64,000 nt of DNA. It comes from an uncultured Arthrobacter sp. Lineage in GTDB: Bacteria; Actinomycetota; Actinomycetes; Actinomycetales; Micrococcaceae. The position numbers and the translations under genes were made by a program. Position 1 is the stretch's first letter, and each line of letters begins with the position of its first letter. Location of the stretch: NCBI RefSeq assembly GCF_947493765.1, contig NZ_CANLSZ010000002.1, forward strand, positions 124,001 to 188,000, given 5' to 3'. Shown one piece after another: positions 37,651 through 43,584 of this stretch. The notes beneath the pieces were generated by a model. It was given only the letters and a program-made list of their open reading frames with translations. It searched no databases and had not been told where the DNA came from.

Positions 37651-37662
37651 CCGCTGTCCCGG

Positions 37663-37736
37663 TGGGCCCTGTGGGGATCGAACCCACGACCCACGGATTA
37701 AAAGTCCGTTGCTCTAACCAACTGAGCTAAGGGCCC
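37663..37736 (-). tRNA. tRNA-Lys, anticodon UUU
   Basis: On the minus strand a 74-base cloverleaf can be folded. The acceptor stem is GGGCCCU with AGGGCCC, the D arm contains TTAGCTCAGTTGGTTAGAGC and the anticodon arm is ACGGACTTTTAATCCGT with anticodon TTT. The T arm contains GTGGGTTCGATCCCCAC. The discriminator base is A and CCA is not encoded. It reads AAA and AAG lysine codons. Confidence 0.95.
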
Positions 37737-38540: not shown

Positions 38541-38568
38541 CCCACTCGGATGCTGGTGCGCCGGGACC

Positions 38569-39570
38569 CTACACGTCGAGCACCAGACGCGATCCCCTGC
38601 ACCGCGAGACGCAGATCATCATCGTGTCGCCCGCATCCTGTTCCTCCGGAGTGAGAAGGGAGTCCCGATGGTCGATCTCCCCGGATACCACGGCGGTCTC
38701 ACACGTTCCGCAAATCCCTCCCCTGCACGAGTTCAGTGCAGGGACGCCGGCCTCCGCCAGGGCATCGAGGATGCTGATCCCCACCGGAACCTGCACTTCC
38801 ACACCTCCGGTGGTCTCCACGGTGAATTCGTGCTCGTCCTCCACCGCGACGGGGTCCTGCGCGGCAACGAACCGTTCGAAGTGGAAGCGCGTCCGGTCGT
38901 CCCACGTCCCCGCGAGTGACGCGATCTGGTCGAGCAGGGTCGCCGGCCCGCAGACGTAGGCGTGGAACCCGCCGACACCGGTGCCGAACAGCTCCGGCAG
39001 CGGATAGCGGCCGGACGTATCGTTCGCATGGAGCTGCACCTTGTCGCCATAGCGCTCCAGTTCACTCCTGAACGCCATCGATGCCAGGGACCGCCCCAGG
39101 TAGACCAGGCGCCAGGGGATGCCCTCTTCCTCGGCGCGCGCGATCATGGGGAGGAGCGGAGTGATGCCGATACCGCCGGCGACGAAGAGGTACTCGGGAG
39201 CGGGCAGGAGCTCGAAGTTGTTCCTGGGTGAGCGGACCCTGACGCTGTCCCCGGGGCGGAGTCCCTCGTGGATGTACGCCGAGCCGCCGCGGCCCGATGC
39301 CTCACGGAGGACTCCCAACCGCCACGTCCCTGCTCCCGGTTCGGAACACAGCGAGTACTGGCGGAGAAGACCATTCGGTAGCAGCACGTCGACATGTGAT
39401 CCCGGAGTCCACGAAGGGAGTCCGCCCTCGGTGCGGGGGCGGAGATGGACGGAGACCACCCGGTCGGATTCCGGGCGGATCTCGTCGATGACCACCTCCG
39501 TGTACCCGTCGTCGGCGCCTCCTGCACCCGGTGGGCCCAGGTGCAGTCCGGCAGTAGGGACGGTGCCCAT
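38569..39570 (-). CDS. FMN/NAD/[2Fe-2S] oxidoreductase (PDR/VanB type)
   Basis: 333 aa. Three domains in order are a flavin barrel (RQYSLCSEPG), an NAD-binding domain (FVAGGIGITPLLPMI, then AYVCGPATLL) and a C-terminal plant-type [2Fe-2S] domain, CRGGICGTC plus a distal Cys in MMICVSRC. This is the phthalate dioxygenase reductase layout used by VanB-type partners of oxygenases and by the reductase part of class VII P450s. GGAGG precedes the ATG. It ends a leftward unit with the lyase gene; a P450 gene is divergent nearby and no oxygenase of another type is present, so it probably feeds electrons to the P450. Confidence 0.9.
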   Translation of the reverse strand: MGTVPTAGLHLGPPGAGGADDGYTEVVIDEIRPESDRVVSVHLRPRTEGGLPSWTPGSHVDVLLPNGLLRQYSLCSEPGAGTWRLGVLREASGRGGSAYIHEGLRPGDSVRVRSPRNNFELLPAPEYLFVAGGIGITPLLPMIARAEEEGIPWRLVYLGRSLASMAFRSELERYGDKVQLHANDTSGRYPLPELFGTGVGGFHAYVCGPATLLDQIASLAGTWDDRTRFHFERFVAAQDPVAVEDEHEFTVETTGGVEVQVPVGISILDALAEAGVPALNSCRGGICGTCETAVVSGEIDHRDSLLTPEEQDAGDTMMICVSRCRGSRLVLDV

Positions 39571-39600
39571 GACGTACCTCCAATGCGATGTATCCGGGAG

Positions 39601-39617
39601 ACCGGGATCATCCCGGT
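39601..39617. promoter_or_regulatory. Palindrome upstream of the reductase gene
   Basis: ACCGGGATCATCCCGGT, an 8-bp stem about a single central base, 31 bases before the reductase start. It could be an operator or a short RNA hairpin in the lyase-reductase gap. Confidence 0.4.
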
Positions 39618-39691
39618 ATGGGAGCCCCTGTGAGGGCGAAGATCGTGCCTGTCCTGACGGAGGACCGGGACGAATGCCTGGCGGTCGCCGA

Positions 39692-41365
39692 TCAGTCGAC
39701 GAGCACCCGGTTCACTTCTTCCACCACTGATCCGGCATGGACGAGGTCACGTGCCCTCCGGACCCGGGGATACAGCACGACGTCGGACGTGATGTGGTCG
39801 ACCGGGCGACCGTCCTGCGACGTGCTGCTGCGAAGCAGGGCCAGCGCCGACGCCGACGCCCTGCCCATCCGCGCCTCCCCCGTCGACTCCAGACCGGCAC
39901 GAAGTTCCAGGGCCTGGGCCGCCATGAGCAGTTCGACGCCGACCACGGTCTCGATGTTCTCCACGATCTGGCGTGCATGCCGCCCGGCGTTGTTGGCCAT
40001 GGACACGTGGTCCTCCTGATTGGCGCACGTGGGGATCGAGTCCACGGAGTCCGGGTGGGCCAGGGTCTTGCAGTCCGAGACCAGGGCAGCGGCCAGATAC
40101 TGCGGCAGCATGTAGCCGCAGTCCAGGCCGGTCTGCTCCGAATCGATGAGCATGTCCGGGAGCCCGCGGTTCAGCGTGCCGTCGTCCAGGCGGAAGAGGC
40201 GGCGTTCCGTGATCGAGCCGATCTCGGTGACCACGATGGAGATGAAATCGGCTGCGAAGGCGACGTACTCGGCATGGAAGTTCCCGCCCGAGACCGCTTT
40301 CAGCGACCGCGTGTCGGGCAGCGCGGGCAGGATCAGCGGGTTGTCCGTCGCCGCGTTGATCTCGTTCTCCAGGATCCCCGCGGCGAAGGCAAGGGTGTCC
40401 TTGATGGGGCCGAAGACCTGTGGGACACACCGGAGGGAGTAGGCGTCCTGCGGCGGTTGGCGCTTGGGATCGGTGGACGCGTTGCCGTCGATCAGGGTCG
40501 AATCGGCGAGGAGTTCACGCATGCGGGCGGCGACCTCGATCTGGCCGCGCTGTCCCCGCGCCCGGTGCAACTCGTCGATGAACGCATCCCCGAAACCCAT
40601 CACGGCCTCGAGCGTCATCGCCGCGGTGATCTGCGCCGTCTCGAGCAGATTCTGTGCGTCGACGAGGGCCAGCGCGGCCTGGGCGGCCGAGAACGAGGTG
40701 CCGTTGAGCAGGGCCAGTCCGTCCTTCGCACCCAGGGGCAGCCGCTCGATGCCGGCCGCCTCCATGGCCGTCATTCCCGAGACGATCGTGCCCGCGAGCA
40801 TGGCCTCCCCGGAGTCGAGGTTGATGTCCTCACCGGCGTGCGAGCGGGACATGACGATCGCAACGTGTGCCAACGGAATCAGGTCACCGGAGGCGCCGAG
40901 TGATCCGTACTCCGGGATGGCGGGGCACACTCCGGCATTGAGCATGTCCGCGAGCGTGCTGATGATCTCCGGGCGAATACCCGAATACCCCTGCGCCAGG
41001 GAGACGATCCGGATGAACATGGTCGCGCGAACCACTTCCTCGTCCACGAAGCGTCCCACCCCGGAGGCGTTGGACAGCACCAGGCGGCGGGAGAGTTCCG
41101 CGGCGTCCGCCGGTTCGGAGAACGCCCGACGGCCGGCGAGTGAACCGAATCCTGTGTTCACGGAGTAGATCGGTGGTGTCTTCGTGTCCCCGCCCATGGA
41201 ATCCACGATTCCCTGGAGCCATTCCTGCGACGGACGCATCGACTCGAAGACGGCCTCGTCGATCACCACGCGGCGTCGGTTGCGGGCCACCTCGACCATG
41301 TCCTCGAGCGTGGCGCGATGGACGCCGATCGTCACGGGTGTCGTCTCAGGCAGTACTGCAGTCAT
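39692..41365 (-). CDS. Aromatic amino acid lyase family enzyme (HAL/PAL/TAL fold), non-histidase type
   Basis: 557 aa from the ATG at 41365, with GGGAG upstream. The MIO cofactor triad Ala158-Ser159-Gly160 lies in PEYGSLGASGDLIPLAHV, and the catalytic Tyr67 in YSVNTGFGSLAG. The selectivity pair in LVLSNASGVG is Ser98-Asn99, where histidases have Ser-His and bacterial tyrosine lyases His-Leu. The later NQEDHVSMA motif is kept. Family members eliminate ammonia from an aromatic amino acid to give a cinnamate-like acid; some are aminomutases. No hutU, hutI or hutG gene is near, and the neighbours are P450, reductase and IclR, so histidine catabolism is unlikely. Substrate unknown: Tyr, Phe or a derivative are candidates. 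Confidence 0.88.
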   Translation of the reverse strand: MTAVLPETTPVTIGVHRATLEDMVEVARNRRRVVIDEAVFESMRPSQEWLQGIVDSMGGDTKTPPIYSVNTGFGSLAGRRAFSEPADAAELSRRLVLSNASGVGRFVDEEVVRATMFIRIVSLAQGYSGIRPEIISTLADMLNAGVCPAIPEYGSLGASGDLIPLAHVAIVMSRSHAGEDINLDSGEAMLAGTIVSGMTAMEAAGIERLPLGAKDGLALLNGTSFSAAQAALALVDAQNLLETAQITAAMTLEAVMGFGDAFIDELHRARGQRGQIEVAARMRELLADSTLIDGNASTDPKRQPPQDAYSLRCVPQVFGPIKDTLAFAAGILENEINAATDNPLILPALPDTRSLKAVSGGNFHAEYVAFAADFISIVVTEIGSITERRLFRLDDGTLNRGLPDMLIDSEQTGLDCGYMLPQYLAAALVSDCKTLAHPDSVDSIPTCANQEDHVSMANNAGRHARQIVENIETVVGVELLMAAQALELRAGLESTGEARMGRASASALALLRSSTSQDGRPVDHITSDVVLYPRVRRARDLVHAGSVVEEVNRVLVD

Positions 41366-42128
41366 CAAGGGTCTCCCTGGTGGATTTCGGTGGTGGGCCA
41401 CTGTTCAGCGCCCCTGAAAGAGTTTCCGCTGCCTCGCGCATGACTGTCAGCGTGGACGCTACCCACGGTTTGGAGCCGCAGCGGGCCTCGGGGCCGGCCA
41501 CGTTGAGCGAACACGCGAGTTCACCGCGGTGCATGACGGGAACGGCGATCGAGACCGATCCCTCGTCCAACTCGCCCCGGGACACGACCACACCCGAGGC
41601 ACGCACCATCGGAATACTGGCCAGCAGCTGCTCCCGGGTGAGGGTCTTCTCGGTGAAGCGGGTCATGGGTCCGTCGAGAACCTGGTGGACCACCTCCGGC
41701 GGCGCCCATGAGAGCACCATGCGCTGACCGGCCCCCGCATACAGCGGAAGCAACTCGTTGACGGCGAACGTGTACTTCAGCGACTTGCGCGTCTCCTCGC
41801 GAAGCAGGCACATGCCCTGGTCGCCGACCCGGACGATCATCACGGCGGTCTCACCCACCTGGTCGACGATCGACCGCAGGACCGCGTTTCCCATGTCGAC
41901 CAGGACGGACTGGGCTGCCGGCCGACCCGCGACATCGAGGACCCTTCGTCCCACGCGGTACAGGCCCTCGTCCTCCGTCACGAAGCCCTGGTCCCGCAGG
42001 ACCCTGAAGTACCGGTAGGCGGAGCTGACGGGGATGCGGAGGTCGCGGGCAACCGTCTCGACAGTCGTCTCGCCGTCGGCGAGCACCTCAGCCAGGATTG
42101 CCAGCCCCCGCTCGAAGGACGACGACAT
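41346..42128 (-). CDS. IclR-family transcriptional regulator
   Basis: 260 aa from the ATG at 42128, with AGGAG at good distance. The N-terminal winged HTH reads RGLAILAEVLADGETTVETV, then RDLRIPVSSAYRYFRVL. The C-terminal IclR effector domain contains SLKYTFAVNELLPLYAGAGQ, typical of regulators of aromatic-acid pathways (PcaR/PobR-like). Its last 20 bases overlap the start of the lyase gene, so both are co-expressed. The P450 gene is divergent, and an imperfect dyad in the gap overlaps the P450 promoter. The effector may be the lyase product (inference). Confidence 0.9.
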   Translation of the reverse strand: MSSSFERGLAILAEVLADGETTVETVARDLRIPVSSAYRYFRVLRDQGFVTEDEGLYRVGRRVLDVAGRPAAQSVLVDMGNAVLRSIVDQVGETAVMIVRVGDQGMCLLREETRKSLKYTFAVNELLPLYAGAGQRMVLSWAPPEVVHQVLDGPMTRFTEKTLTREQLLASIPMVRASGVVVSRGELDEGSVSIAVPVMHRGELACSLNVAGPEARCGSKPWVASTLTVMREAAETLSGALNSGPPPKSTRETLDDCSTA

Positions 42129-42205
42129 GGGCACTCCTCTCCCGGCAGTGTGACGCGCCGCACATGAGCGGCTTCCCGTCGATCGTCCACCCCGCGGGCA
42201 GGGAT

Positions 42206-42243
42206 GACAATTTCGGTTCCCGCAGGATGAGAACCACATTGTC
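42206..42243. promoter_or_regulatory. Candidate IclR operator, imperfect dyad
   Basis: The left half GACAATTTCGGTTC (42206-42219) and the right half GAACCACATTGTC (42231-42243) are inverted, with 11 bases between them. The right half overlaps the -35 hexamer of the P450 gene. Confidence 0.5.
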
Positions 42244-42268
42244 CAGAAATCCTGTGGATCGCTAGGTT
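42239..42268 (+). promoter_or_regulatory. Promoter of the P450 gene
   Basis: TTGTCC (42239-42244) and TAGGTT (42263-42268), 18 bases apart, about 42 bases upstream of the P450 ATG. Confidence 0.5.
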
Positions 42269-42309
42269 GAAGTCCGCTCCATCCTTCGTCAGACGGGAAG
42301 CAGGAACGC

Positions 42310-43506
42310 ATGAGCACCGCCCCCATCCCAGTGATCACCGAGGACCCGTACGCCCCCGGGCACCTCGCGGACCCGTACCCGTTGTTCGAGCAGATGCGCC
42401 AGGCAGGGCCCGTGGTCCTGATGAAGGAGCACTCCCTGCACGCCGCGACCCGGTTCGAGGAATGCAGGTCGATCCTCGAGGACCACGACACCTTCATCTC
42501 CGGAGCCGGAGCGGGTCCGAAGAACCTGCACTACGAGCCCAGCTGGCGAGCGCAGGGGATCATGGAGTCGGACCCGCCCATCCACACCGAGATGCGCCGG
42601 TCACTGGCCGGCGTCATCTCCCCTCGCGGAGTCCGCTCACTGCGTCCCGCATTCGAGGAGTACGCCACCGAGCTGGTCGACGAGCTGCTGGAACGGCGCT
42701 CCTTCGACCTGGTCAAGGACATGGCGGAGGTATTCCCGCTGCGCGTCTTCGGCGACGCCGTGGGCATCCCCCGGGAGGGCCGTGCGGAGAACCTGCCTGC
42801 GCTCGGAGCAGCGAACTTCTCGACGTTCGGCCCCGATACCGAACTCGCTCGTCAGCACTTCGACGCCGGTGCCGGGAAGAACGACTGGGCCATGGCGAAC
42901 ACGGCCCGGGAGAATCTTTCCCCTGGTTCACTCGGCGCGCAGATCTGGGAGCACGCCGATCGTGGAGAGATCAGCACCGATCAGGCGGCCCTCCTCGTCC
43001 GCGCGATGCTCTCCGCCGGACTGGACACCACCATCTTCTCCCTGGGAGCGACCCTCATGTCGCTCGTCGGCAACCCCGGCGAGTACGCGAAGGTCCACGA
43101 GAACCAGAAACTGGTCAAGTTCGCCGTCGACGAGGCATTCCGCTTCGAATCGCCCTTCCAGTCGTTCTACCGCACGACCTCGACGGACACCGTCCTCGGC
43201 GGAGTCGAACTGCCCGCCGGGACGAAGGTGGCGGTGTTCGTCGGTTCGGCGAATCGCGACCGCGAGCGCTGGGGCCCGGATGCCGACCGGTACGACATCG
43301 GCCGTCAAGCCGGAGGGCATCTGGCGTTCGGGATGGGCATCCATCAGTGCGTCGGCCAGCCGCTCTCCCGCCTGGAGATGGACGTGCTCCTCACCGAGTT
43401 CGCGCGCCGGGTGAGATCGGTCGAACTCACCTCACCCCCGGAACAGTTCCTGCACACCGCCCTGCGGGGCTGGTCGTCGATCCCCGTGGTGGTGACAGCC
43501 GCCTGA
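42310..43506 (+). CDS. Cytochrome P450, CYP199-like
   Basis: 398 aa with CAGGAACGC before the ATG. P450 marks are AGLDTT (236-241, I helix), EAFR (275-278, ExxR) and FGMGIHQCVGQ with haem Cys347. Long stretches resemble CYP199A4 (for example LLVRAMLSAGLDTT and RFESPFQSFYRTT), with a constant 12-residue offset. From memory of CYP199A4, its carboxylate-binding Arg92 and Arg243 correspond to Arg80 and Arg231 here, but Ser95 and Ser244 become Gly83 and Ala232. The aromatic pocket Phe182, Phe185 and Phe298 is kept as Phe170, Phe173 and Phe286. CYP199 enzymes oxidise para-substituted benzoates and cinnamates. The divergent lyase and reductase fit such a substrate. Confidence 0.92.
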   Translation: MSTAPIPVITEDPYAPGHLADPYPLFEQMRQAGPVVLMKEHSLHAATRFEECRSILEDHDTFISGAGAGPKNLHYEPSWRAQGIMESDPPIHTEMRRSLAGVISPRGVRSLRPAFEEYATELVDELLERRSFDLVKDMAEVFPLRVFGDAVGIPREGRAENLPALGAANFSTFGPDTELARQHFDAGAGKNDWAMANTARENLSPGSLGAQIWEHADRGEISTDQAALLVRAMLSAGLDTTIFSLGATLMSLVGNPGEYAKVHENQKLVKFAVDEAFRFESPFQSFYRTTSTDTVLGGVELPAGTKVAVFVGSANRDRERWGPDADRYDIGRQAGGHLAFGMGIHQCVGQPLSRLEMDVLLTEFARRVRSVELTSPPEQFLHTALRGWSSIPVVVTAA

Positions 43507-43584
43507 TCACGAGAACGGGCGCCCCCGGACGGCACTCCGTACGGGAGGTAGCGGCGCGCTCCCGGTGCCGGCGAGCTTCGGCGG

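Follow-up and report, generated by a model that had tools for sequence, protein, structure and literature searches.

What does a small gene unit that couples an ammonia-lyase to a cytochrome P450 do in the genome of an uncultured Arthrobacter sp.? The preliminary description saw in it a route in which the lyase makes a cinnamate-like acid from an aromatic amino acid and the P450, fed by an adjacent reductase, then oxidises the product.

An insertion of four genes

The unit lies within the window, by which we mean the whole 64,000-nucleotide stretch of DNA analysed. On the minus strand it encodes a phthalate-dioxygenase-reductase-type reductase of the flavin, NAD(P)H and [2Fe-2S] kind (38569..39570), a HAL-type MIO ammonia-lyase with Asn at the position of His83 (39692..41365; assigned from Pfam, residues, a tree and the neighbourhoods of its relatives) and an IclR-family regulator (41346..42128). 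The divergent gene on the plus strand encodes a cytochrome P450 related to CYP199A (42310..43506), and the 181-bp region between the IclR and P450 genes (42129..42309) presumably holds both promoters. ATG at 41365, which is preferred over GTG at 41401 as the best start of the lyase, gives the lyase and IclR genes a 20-nt overlap. The four genes are there as first described, with intact cofactor motifs, and the folds of their products are evident from sequence.

That these genes form an accessory insertion is borne out by the sister species G001, in which flanks 88.9% and 93.8% identical in DNA to those of the window are joined without the unit (locus L186). This empty site delimits an insertion of 5,034 bp (38546..43579) with exactly the four genes and a GC content of 66.8%, compared to 69.9% elsewhere in the window. 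No lyase of this kind was found in any of the 34 congeners searched. The nearby tRNA-Lys (37661-37736), also taken at first as a mark of insertion, is separated from the unit by a 215-aa core gene. Because the tRNA and the core gene are intact and are also present, in the same state, at the empty site, the tRNA is ruled out as the attachment site. Genes for a CoA ligase or for ring cleavage are absent from the insertion. The reported absence of a hut gene is correct for the unit, but a hut locus with HutU, HutH, HutI-, HutF- and AllC-like genes, recognised by homology, lies on another contig of the same genome. The empty-site comparison thus indicates that what moved into the hut-bearing host was these four genes and no others.

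The lyase and its two genomic contexts

Judged by its sequence, the lyase is a histidine-type enzyme with one changed ring contact. It matches PF00221 (3e-160), carries the MIO triad A-S-G at residues 158-160 and finds its best PDB matches among HAL structures (327 bits, against 153 bits for the ergothionase structure 6s7j). It scores 513.5 bits with the hutH model TIGR01225, below the equivalog cut-off of 539.15, and 540 bits with PRK09367, above the subfamily cut-off of 524. None of the PAL/TAL models reaches its cut-off: TIGR01226 gives 262 bits (cut-off 519), NF053541 305 bits (700) and NF041222 232 bits (1000). The HAL residues Y53, N195, Q277, Y280, R283, F329, M382 and E414, the last within the motif NQEDHVSM, are invariant across the 18 clade members examined. 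The His usual at position 83 is replaced in all of them, by Asn in six and by Asp in 12. Ser-His occupies positions 82-83 in 93 of the 115 distinct sequences of a wider alignment; the window lyase has Ser-Asn, and so lacks the pair typical of HutH. P450-linked lyases fall into a Ser-Asn type (the window and genome G134) and an Ala-Asp type (11 genomes, all of one genus), a split that may reflect two substrates. At L028 the sole lyase of the genome has Asn-Cys at 82-83, so that position 83 differs there too.

We take residue 83 to be the equivalent, by analogy, of the TAL specificity residue, in which case it would point to the distal nitrogen of the ring (N-tau). In PMC11432326, His83 of HAL is proposed to contact the substrate, perhaps via zinc, and N-tau-methylhistidine is named among the reported HAL substrates. 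We propose that the lyase is an N-tau-methylhistidine ammonia-lyase.

Relatives of the lyase that are not linked to a P450 occur in hut-like operons. Loci L023, L024 and L217 are complete second hut-like operons, in which the lyase is accompanied by urocanase-, imidazolonepropionase- and HutF-like genes, and L026 is a partial one with a urocanase and a weak HutF-like match. The urocanases of L023, L026 and L217 are 76-89% identical to that of L024; the canonical urocanases of the three searchable hut-like genomes are 45-47% identical to it. The L024 enzyme scores 619.7 bits with the S-methyl-thiourocanate hydratase model and 620.1 bits with the HutU model, and the hydratases of the hut-like loci fall far under the thiourocanate-type cut-offs of 880 and 930. 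Together with the HAL-type scores, these operons suggest that the lyase product is a urocanate derivative and not cinnamate, against the cinnamate-like product first put forward. Residues, model cut-offs and neighbourhoods all spoke against a Tyr/Phe lyase, which was rejected; Tyr or Phe is probably the wrong substrate.

The second context is that of the window. Of 396 genomes sampled across the order, eight carry the lyase, and of 57 genomes of one genus, 11 do; in every one of these it is linked to the P450. Combined, these searches give 13 distinct lyase-bearing genomes from three genera and three families, and in each of the 13 a CYP199-related P450 and an IclR gene accompany the lyase, with a divergent layout in G134 identical to that of the window. 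The gene set is conserved as a unit; no reductase homologue was found near it in three of the 13 loci. A separate canonical HutH above the family cut-off is present in all 13 genomes. Exactly one urocanase, canonical at 858-912 bits, was found in each of the eight tested, and the unit itself contains no dedicated urocanase- or imidazolonepropionase-like gene. Extra divergent urocanase copies occur in all three hut-like genomes tested. Genome G429, with a clade lyase at a contig end (L025), has no second urocanase and no P450 match, and the hut-like genome G428 has a P450 relative (50% identity) at a separate locus, with Ser kept at 87.

The P450 system and a proposed shared control site

The P450 has intact AGLDT, EAFR and FGMGIHQCVG motifs, and its nearest PDB matches in phmmer are PbdA (44.5% identity) and CYP199A4 (41.6%). 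According to PMC11530827, characterised CYP199A members share as little as 51% identity, a floor below which the window P450 lies, and these enzymes are para-O-demethylases, of which CYP199A4 also N-demethylates. In PbdA numbering, all 13 linked P450s keep Arg84 but replace Ser87 by Gly, Ser237 by Ala and Val288 by Phe, whereas Arg, Ser, Ser and Val are found in all eight CYP199A-like P450s of the order, in PbdA and in CYP199A4. The window P450 thus has Arg, Gly and Ala in place of the CYP199A carboxylate triad, and since both carboxylate-binding serines are lost the CYP199A binding mode cannot simply be transferred. It resembles the para-methoxybenzoate O-demethylases PbdA/PbdB of Rhodococcus jostii RHA1 and CYP199A2/A4 in pairing a P450 with a reductase, in keeping Arg84, Arg236, Asp244-Thr245 and Phe291 of PbdA and, as we propose, in demethylating a distal substituent of a flat carboxylic acid. 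It differs from them in its 42-45% identity, the pocket replacements, a one-residue deletion after position 87 and the linkage to a lyase and an IclR gene. A search of plasmids with the P450 gave 47 records, all below 60% identity, the best at 47.5% among the matches listed. The same P450 group occurs in the lyase-less genomes G204, G361, G285 and G439, and in more divergent form in G132, and its substrate may therefore also arise by routes that do not involve the lyase. P450 relatives located away from the lyase have LysR, M20 peptidase, sodium symporter, MmgE/PrpD, aldehyde dehydrogenase and IclR genes, among others, as neighbours, and a scan of ten chosen neighbours suggested no common substrate.

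The reductase has the RQYS and GGIGITP motifs and the four Cys of a plant-type [2Fe-2S] centre, as expected of phthalate-dioxygenase reductases, and phmmer matches it to 2pia and to the reductase part of the P450-reductase chains 6laa and 6kbh. A homologue adjoins each of the four CYP199A-like control P450s examined (L136-L139), and we propose that the reductase is the electron donor to the P450. The preliminary description was right about the conserved unit and the pairing of reductase with CYP199-type P450s, and its two steps, the lyase first and then an oxidation on the distal side of a flat acrylic acid, fit; the ring it chose is very probably wrong, since the lyase is HAL-type.

The regulator has the IclR HTH (PF09339) and C-terminal (PF01614) domains. 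Its best NCBIfam model, from the PcaR/PcaU/PobR family of aromatic-acid regulators, reaches 118 bits against a cut-off of 285, and its relatives are 49% identical in G134 and 45% identical in the P450-less hut-like L023. A first scan for a shared palindrome with perfect arms found none; the shared one, with imperfect arms, is GTTCCCGCAGGATGAGAAC at 42216..42234 in the divergent region, an exact match to RTTCYC-N7-GRGAAY, and a stricter pattern has its sole exact match in the window at the same position. The palindrome is exact in the IclR-P450 gap of 10 of the 13 P450-linked loci, window included, and has two mismatches in the remaining three; the pattern was derived by eye from seven loci, which are no independent support for it. 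In the hut-like loci it is exact upstream of IclR in L026 and, with a single mismatch each, lies between IclR and the lyase in L217 and just ahead of the lyase in L023. We propose that it is the IclR operator. The two architectures look alike in control too.

A proposed route from methylhistidine to hut

In our view the unit probably serves as a shortcut in the catabolism of a ring-modified histidine, with N-tau-methylhistidine (3-methylhistidine) as the most likely substrate and P450 demethylation as the step that leads into hut. The specialised lyase would take ammonia off N-tau-methylhistidine to give N-tau-methylurocanate. With O2, and with electrons from NAD(P)H passed on by the neighbouring reductase, the P450 would hydroxylate the N-methyl group, which would be lost as formaldehyde to leave urocanate for the ordinary hut pathway, whose genes, by homology, lie elsewhere in the genome. 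IclR may sense the substrate or methylurocanate and act at the conserved palindrome. In other bacteria with the same lyase clade, a dedicated urocanase, imidazolonepropionase and deiminase would, from gene content, handle the modified ring directly. We lean towards the more specific reading that a new CYP199-related group N-demethylates N-tau-methylurocanate, letting a four-gene mobile unit feed 3-methylhistidine to hut, and that one lyase clade is followed either by dedicated ring hydration or by P450 demethylation, the two substituting for one another while the IclR regulators are related and the palindrome is shared.

The lyase shares with canonical hut (HutH/HutU/HutI) its fold, the MIO triad and, with one exception, the catalytic residues inspected, and its proposed product would enter hut; it differs in having Asn/Asp for His83, in lying apart from the genome's hut locus and in scoring under the HutH equivalog cut-off. 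The known bacterial N-tau-methylhistidine pathway reportedly has its own urocanase- and imidazolonepropionase-like enzymes. It was published by Beliaeva, Atac and Seebeck (2022, ACS Chem Biol 17:1989), a paper cited in PMC11432326, PMC11591506 and PMC9960084. In gene content, L023, L024, L217 and partly L026 appear to resemble it. The window unit would share its HAL-type first step on a methylated histidine, but has a P450 and a reductase and no dedicated urocanase or imidazolonepropionase. No relevant paper on a P450 for methylurocanate or methylhistidine was found in the literature covered, which included few subscription journals and mostly titles and abstract openings.

A different modified histidine, such as N-pi-methylhistidine (from anserine) or a ring-substituted histidine, whose substituent the P450 removes or oxidises before hut, is a possible though less probable substrate. 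The changed position 83, the hut-like relatives and the lack of a second urocanase fit any ring-modified histidine, and the Asn/Asp split allows more than one substrate. Against it, residue 83 would by analogy with TAL point to the distal nitrogen, N-tau, a substituent there occupies the para-equivalent position attacked by CYP199-type enzymes, and the citations found include a paper on bacterial degradation for N-tau- but not for N-pi-methylhistidine. It is unlikely that the P450 oxidises or opens the ring of a urocanate derivative in a separate route bypassing hut: its pocket departs from CYP199A at at least three inspected positions, so its reaction may differ, but the insertion brings no downstream ring-opening enzyme and canonical HutH and HutU are kept in the eight linked genomes tested for both.

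The route first described, with cinnamate or p-coumarate made from Phe or Tyr and hydroxylated by the P450, now seems very improbable. CYP199A as nearest PDB relative, a fold common to PAL/TAL and the PcaR/PobR-like top model of the regulator, albeit under its cut-off, agree with it; the HAL-type catalytic set with Glu414, the PAL and TAL models far under their cut-offs, the urocanase-imidazolonepropionase-HutF operons of the relatives and the lack of a CoA ligase or ring-cleavage gene do not. The P450 more likely demethylates a urocanate derivative into hut than hydroxylates a phenolic acid. The comparative data come close to what the preliminary description itself held to be contrary to its route, a lyase that uses histidine, but the histidine would be a modified one. 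Equally improbable is a second HutH on ordinary histidine beside an unrelated P450. The overall HAL-likeness (TIGR01225, PRK09367) would suit this, but canonical HutH is already present in 13 of 13 genomes, position 83 is changed in 18 of 18 lyases and the P450 linkage is tight across three families. Least probable is an ergothionase-like lyase acting on ergothioneine or another histidine betaine, with a P450 that desulfurises or oxidises the product. The near-tie of the two hydratase models on the L024 urocanase is in its favour; the 153 bits of 6s7j against 327 for HAL, the inspected HAL residues other than 83, all retained in the window lyase, and the shortfall of the hydratases from the thiourocanate-type cut-offs oppose it.

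3-Methylhistidine generally serves as a marker of muscle breakdown and meat intake on the view that it cannot be metabolised. If the proposed N-tau-methylhistidine route is correct, bacteria would have a second, oxygen-dependent way to use methylhistidine, and their ability to consume it would be a warning where it serves as a biomarker. A P450 group otherwise annotated "CYP199-like" would gain a substrate and a function, and the lyase clade would offer a case of pathway replacement, with three dedicated enzymes on one side and one P450 system on the other.

An inserted lyase–P450 unit and its distribution

The four genes clustered in the preliminary description, a reductase, a lyase and an IclR regulator on the reverse strand and a divergent P450 on the forward strand, are all intact at 38569-43506. 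The lyase start is better set at 41365, giving a 20-nt overlap with the IclR gene, and the cofactor motifs of lyase, P450 and reductase are complete. Their proposed origin as an accessory insertion is borne out by a sister species (G001) with an empty site: the insertion spans 5,034 bases (38546-43579) and holds exactly the four genes, whereas in G001 the flanks, 88.9% and 93.8% identical to those of the window, are joined except for 9 bp. The left flanking gene was matched in 37 congeners, 29 of them returned as loci, and in 28 of these the right flanking gene lies at most 1.5 kb past it, mostly with a few hundred bases between. In the 29th (G017; L215, 3806-5469), two other open frames of 153 and 413 aa, without match to any module gene, sit between the 215-aa and 225-aa genes, possibly making this chromosomal position a repeated insertion site. 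The GC content of the unit is 66.8%, compared with 69.9% in the remainder of the window, and is below that of every one of 237 sampled sliding stretches of the same size. The lyase is absent from all 34 congeners searched; the closest matches there are HutH-like, at ~40–44% identity, and some congeners also have more distant lyases.

A sample of 396 genomes drawn from the order of the window contains eight with the lyase (E up to 1e-108), each with the P450 alongside it. The same holds for all 11 lyase carriers among 57 genomes searched in the genus of G039, where P450s of this group (at least 53%) occur in 14; the hypergeometric value for co-occurrence is 2e-9, uncorrected for shared ancestry. 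Pooled, the searches give 13 P450-linked genomes in three genera and three families. Conservation of the gene set holds for lyase, P450 and IclR, the last lying next to P450 or lyase in 13/13 loci, and only in part for the reductase, a homologue of which falls within the fetched stretch in ten and was not found in those of G133, G295 (contig end) and G453. The divergent gene order of the window recurs in G134, a genome of another family, whose IclR is the closest to that of the window (49% identical). Next come the IclRs of two P450-less loci, L023 (45%) and L217 (40%); identity falls to 32–37% for IclRs near the P450 in G039's genus and to 26–33% for those that ten congeners have beside hutH. 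In G161, a Rieske oxygenase of the VanA type, accompanied by a reductase of its own, lies ~5 kb from the lyase–P450 unit (L132:15930-18519); it is unrelated to the window and suggests a wider demethylation island in that genome.

A histidine-type lyase with relatives in hut-like loci

Against solved structures, the lyase matches histidine ammonia-lyases (HALs) best (327 bits at most); tyrosine aminomutases (240), 2o6y (204), plant PAL (183) and ergothionase 6s7j (153) score lower. Entry 2o6y was deposited as a putative HAL; we take it to be the Rhodobacter TAL. Aligned to Pseudomonas HAL, whose numbering is used here, the window lyase keeps Y53, N195, Q277, Y280, R283, F329, M382 and E414 and has Asn in place of His83; for the roles of these residues we partly assume what is generally held. 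Judged by its sequence, the lyase is of the histidine type. The eight residues are identical in all 18 examined lyases of the clade (13 beside a P450, four in hut-like loci, one at a contig end), in which position 83 is Asn (6) or Asp (12) and position 82 Ser (7) or Ala (11). A wider alignment of 123 rows holds 115 distinct sequences, including incomplete ones and members of the clade itself; positions 82-83 read Ser-His in 93 of them, Ala-His in one and Asn-Cys in one. A 2024 paper on HAL relates an earlier proposal that His83 contacts the substrate via zinc; it also counts N-tau-methylhistidine as one of the substrates reported for HAL, crediting Beliaeva et al. (PMC11432326). A tree of 28 lyases groups those linked to the P450 with support of 93/99, slightly under the tool's mark for firm support, and the hut-like ones adjoin them; placement of the window lyase is weaker (82/55).

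Four relatives were found outside the P450 context, in hut-like loci. In L024 (Arthrobacter sp. SDTb3-6), L023 (Microbacteriaceae MAG) and L217 (Streptomyces sp. NBC_00841 plasmid), genes for the lyase and urocanase-like, imidazolonepropionase-like and HutF-like proteins stand in a row. In L026 (Actinomycetes MAG) the lyase, 57% identical, has a urocanase beside it and also a HutF-like match, which is weaker (37%); imidazolonepropionase was not detected at that locus. The urocanases of the other three loci are 89, 86 and 76% identical to that of L024, compared with 45–47% for the canonical urocanases of G427, G428 and G430, the three genomes searched. These three also carry canonical HutH and HutU, so that the lyase at these loci would feed a second hut-like pathway; its substrate there would carry an imidazole ring but presumably not be plain histidine. 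L023 and L024 came from another collection and stand outside the 13-genome count; we assume that they may fall in the window's order in GTDB, in which case the split between hut-like and P450-linked loci is not one of taxonomy alone. A fifth relative, L025 (Rubellimicrobium MAG, G429), lies at a contig end in a genome with one urocanase, in which neither a P450 match nor a second urocanase was found; as far as can be seen it fits neither pattern.

L217 (NZ_CP108854.1 111856-131487) belongs to a 1.5-Mb linear plasmid typed as mobilizable, in a stretch unannotated in the collection, with an IclR gene divergent from the operon; the P450-less form is thus also plasmid-borne. G430, the genome of L026, has four urocanase and five HutH-family matches, and one TGA is reported within the matched frame of its clade lyase; either several imidazole pathways run in parallel there or the bin is mixed.

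A proposed palindromic control site

The palindrome RTTCYC-N7-GRGAAY, derived by eye from seven gaps (the window and six others), occurs exactly in the IclR–P450 gap of ten of the 13 P450-linked loci, including the window (42216-42234); the remaining three, G134, G039 and G295, have it with two mismatches. All five P450-linked loci outside the derivation (G161, G453, G437, G447, G445) have an exact site. L026 has one within 300 bp upstream of its IclR, L217 a one-mismatch site in the IclR–lyase gap and L023 one immediately before the lyase, with none within 300 bp upstream of its IclR; L024 has no site within one mismatch of a stricter pattern, and no IclR was detected there. Both architectures seem to have regulator type and site in common, which suggests a shared inducer.

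Gaps of this kind total 3,591 bp and hold 11 exact palindromes; the other 339,347 bp hold nine. Six of the nine lie within ~220 bp before a reductase match (L129:887, L131:13723, L177:6449, L178:13652, L179:13308, L180:13239), two upstream of IclR (L131:8031, L180:7773) and one farther before a reductase (L129:366). The site at L131:13723 sits between the reductase and a divergent sodium symporter. This distribution suggests that the reductase, and perhaps the symporter, fall under the same regulon in the genus of these loci.

The P450 group and the proposed route

The closest solved relatives of the P450 are PbdA (44.5% identity) and CYP199A4 (41.6%). PbdA, whose numbering is used here, holds the substrate carboxylate via Arg84, Ser87 and Ser237, as described in PMC11530827. 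All 13 lyase-linked P450s retain Arg84 and have Gly87, Ala237 and Phe288, the last in place of Val, whereas PbdA, CYP199A4 and eight CYP199A-like P450s found in the window's order have Arg, Ser, Ser and Val throughout. The changed residues therefore point to a CYP199A-related group with a re-shaped pocket. The group is wider than the lyase unit, since six relatives away from the lyase share Ala237 and Phe288 (6/6) and Gly87 (5/6), with Trp aligned at 84 in three, possibly by a one-column shift. Six loci (L126, L133, L134, L135, L181, L182) carry such P450s next to a reductase homologue without such a lyase nearby, among LysR or IclR regulators, a sodium symporter, M20 peptidase, MmgE/PrpD and aldehyde dehydrogenase; these P450s probably take other carboxylic acids.

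A separate HutH above the cut-off is present in all 13 P450-linked genomes, and the eight examined for urocanase have exactly one each, canonical. In these genomes the P450 appears to replace the second hut-like pathway. The lyase would act first, because a P450 acting first on methylhistidine would yield plain histidine and make a specialised lyase needless. The P450 would then convert a modified urocanate to a form acceptable to the single canonical urocanase, which oxidative N-demethylation would achieve in one step. Because N-tau, the ring nitrogen distal to the side chain, sits where cinnamates have their para position, N-tau-methylhistidine is favoured over its N-pi isomer. Beliaeva et al. 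reportedly described specialised HAL, urocanase and imidazolonepropionase homologues. CYP199A enzymes act on flat carboxylic acids, from whose para position they take methyl groups, and CYP199A4 is capable of N-demethylation as well (PMC11530827). We regard an imidazole-type substrate as highly likely and N-tau-methylhistidine as its likely identity; demethylation of methylurocanate by the P450 is somewhat favoured.

Several results count against this route: the Asn/Asp split among P450-linked lyases, same-group P450s in genomes without the lyase, the three loci without a nearby reductase, and G429 with its lyase but neither partner found. G428 combines a hut-like operon with a P450 relative at a separate locus that retains Ser87, the lyase of L028 (Gemmatimonadota) is changed at position 83 though it is the only one in its genome, and the top curated model for the regulator is of the PcaR/PobR kind. 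None brings back the earlier reading, in which the lyase makes a cinnamate-like acid that the P450 oxidises on its para side; the HAL structures as top matches, the retained HAL residues and the relatives in hut-like loci argue against such a product.

In the literature searched, with incomplete coverage, no P450 branch of N-tau-methylhistidine degradation was found. Bacterial breakdown of this compound is already in print, as cited in PMC11432326.
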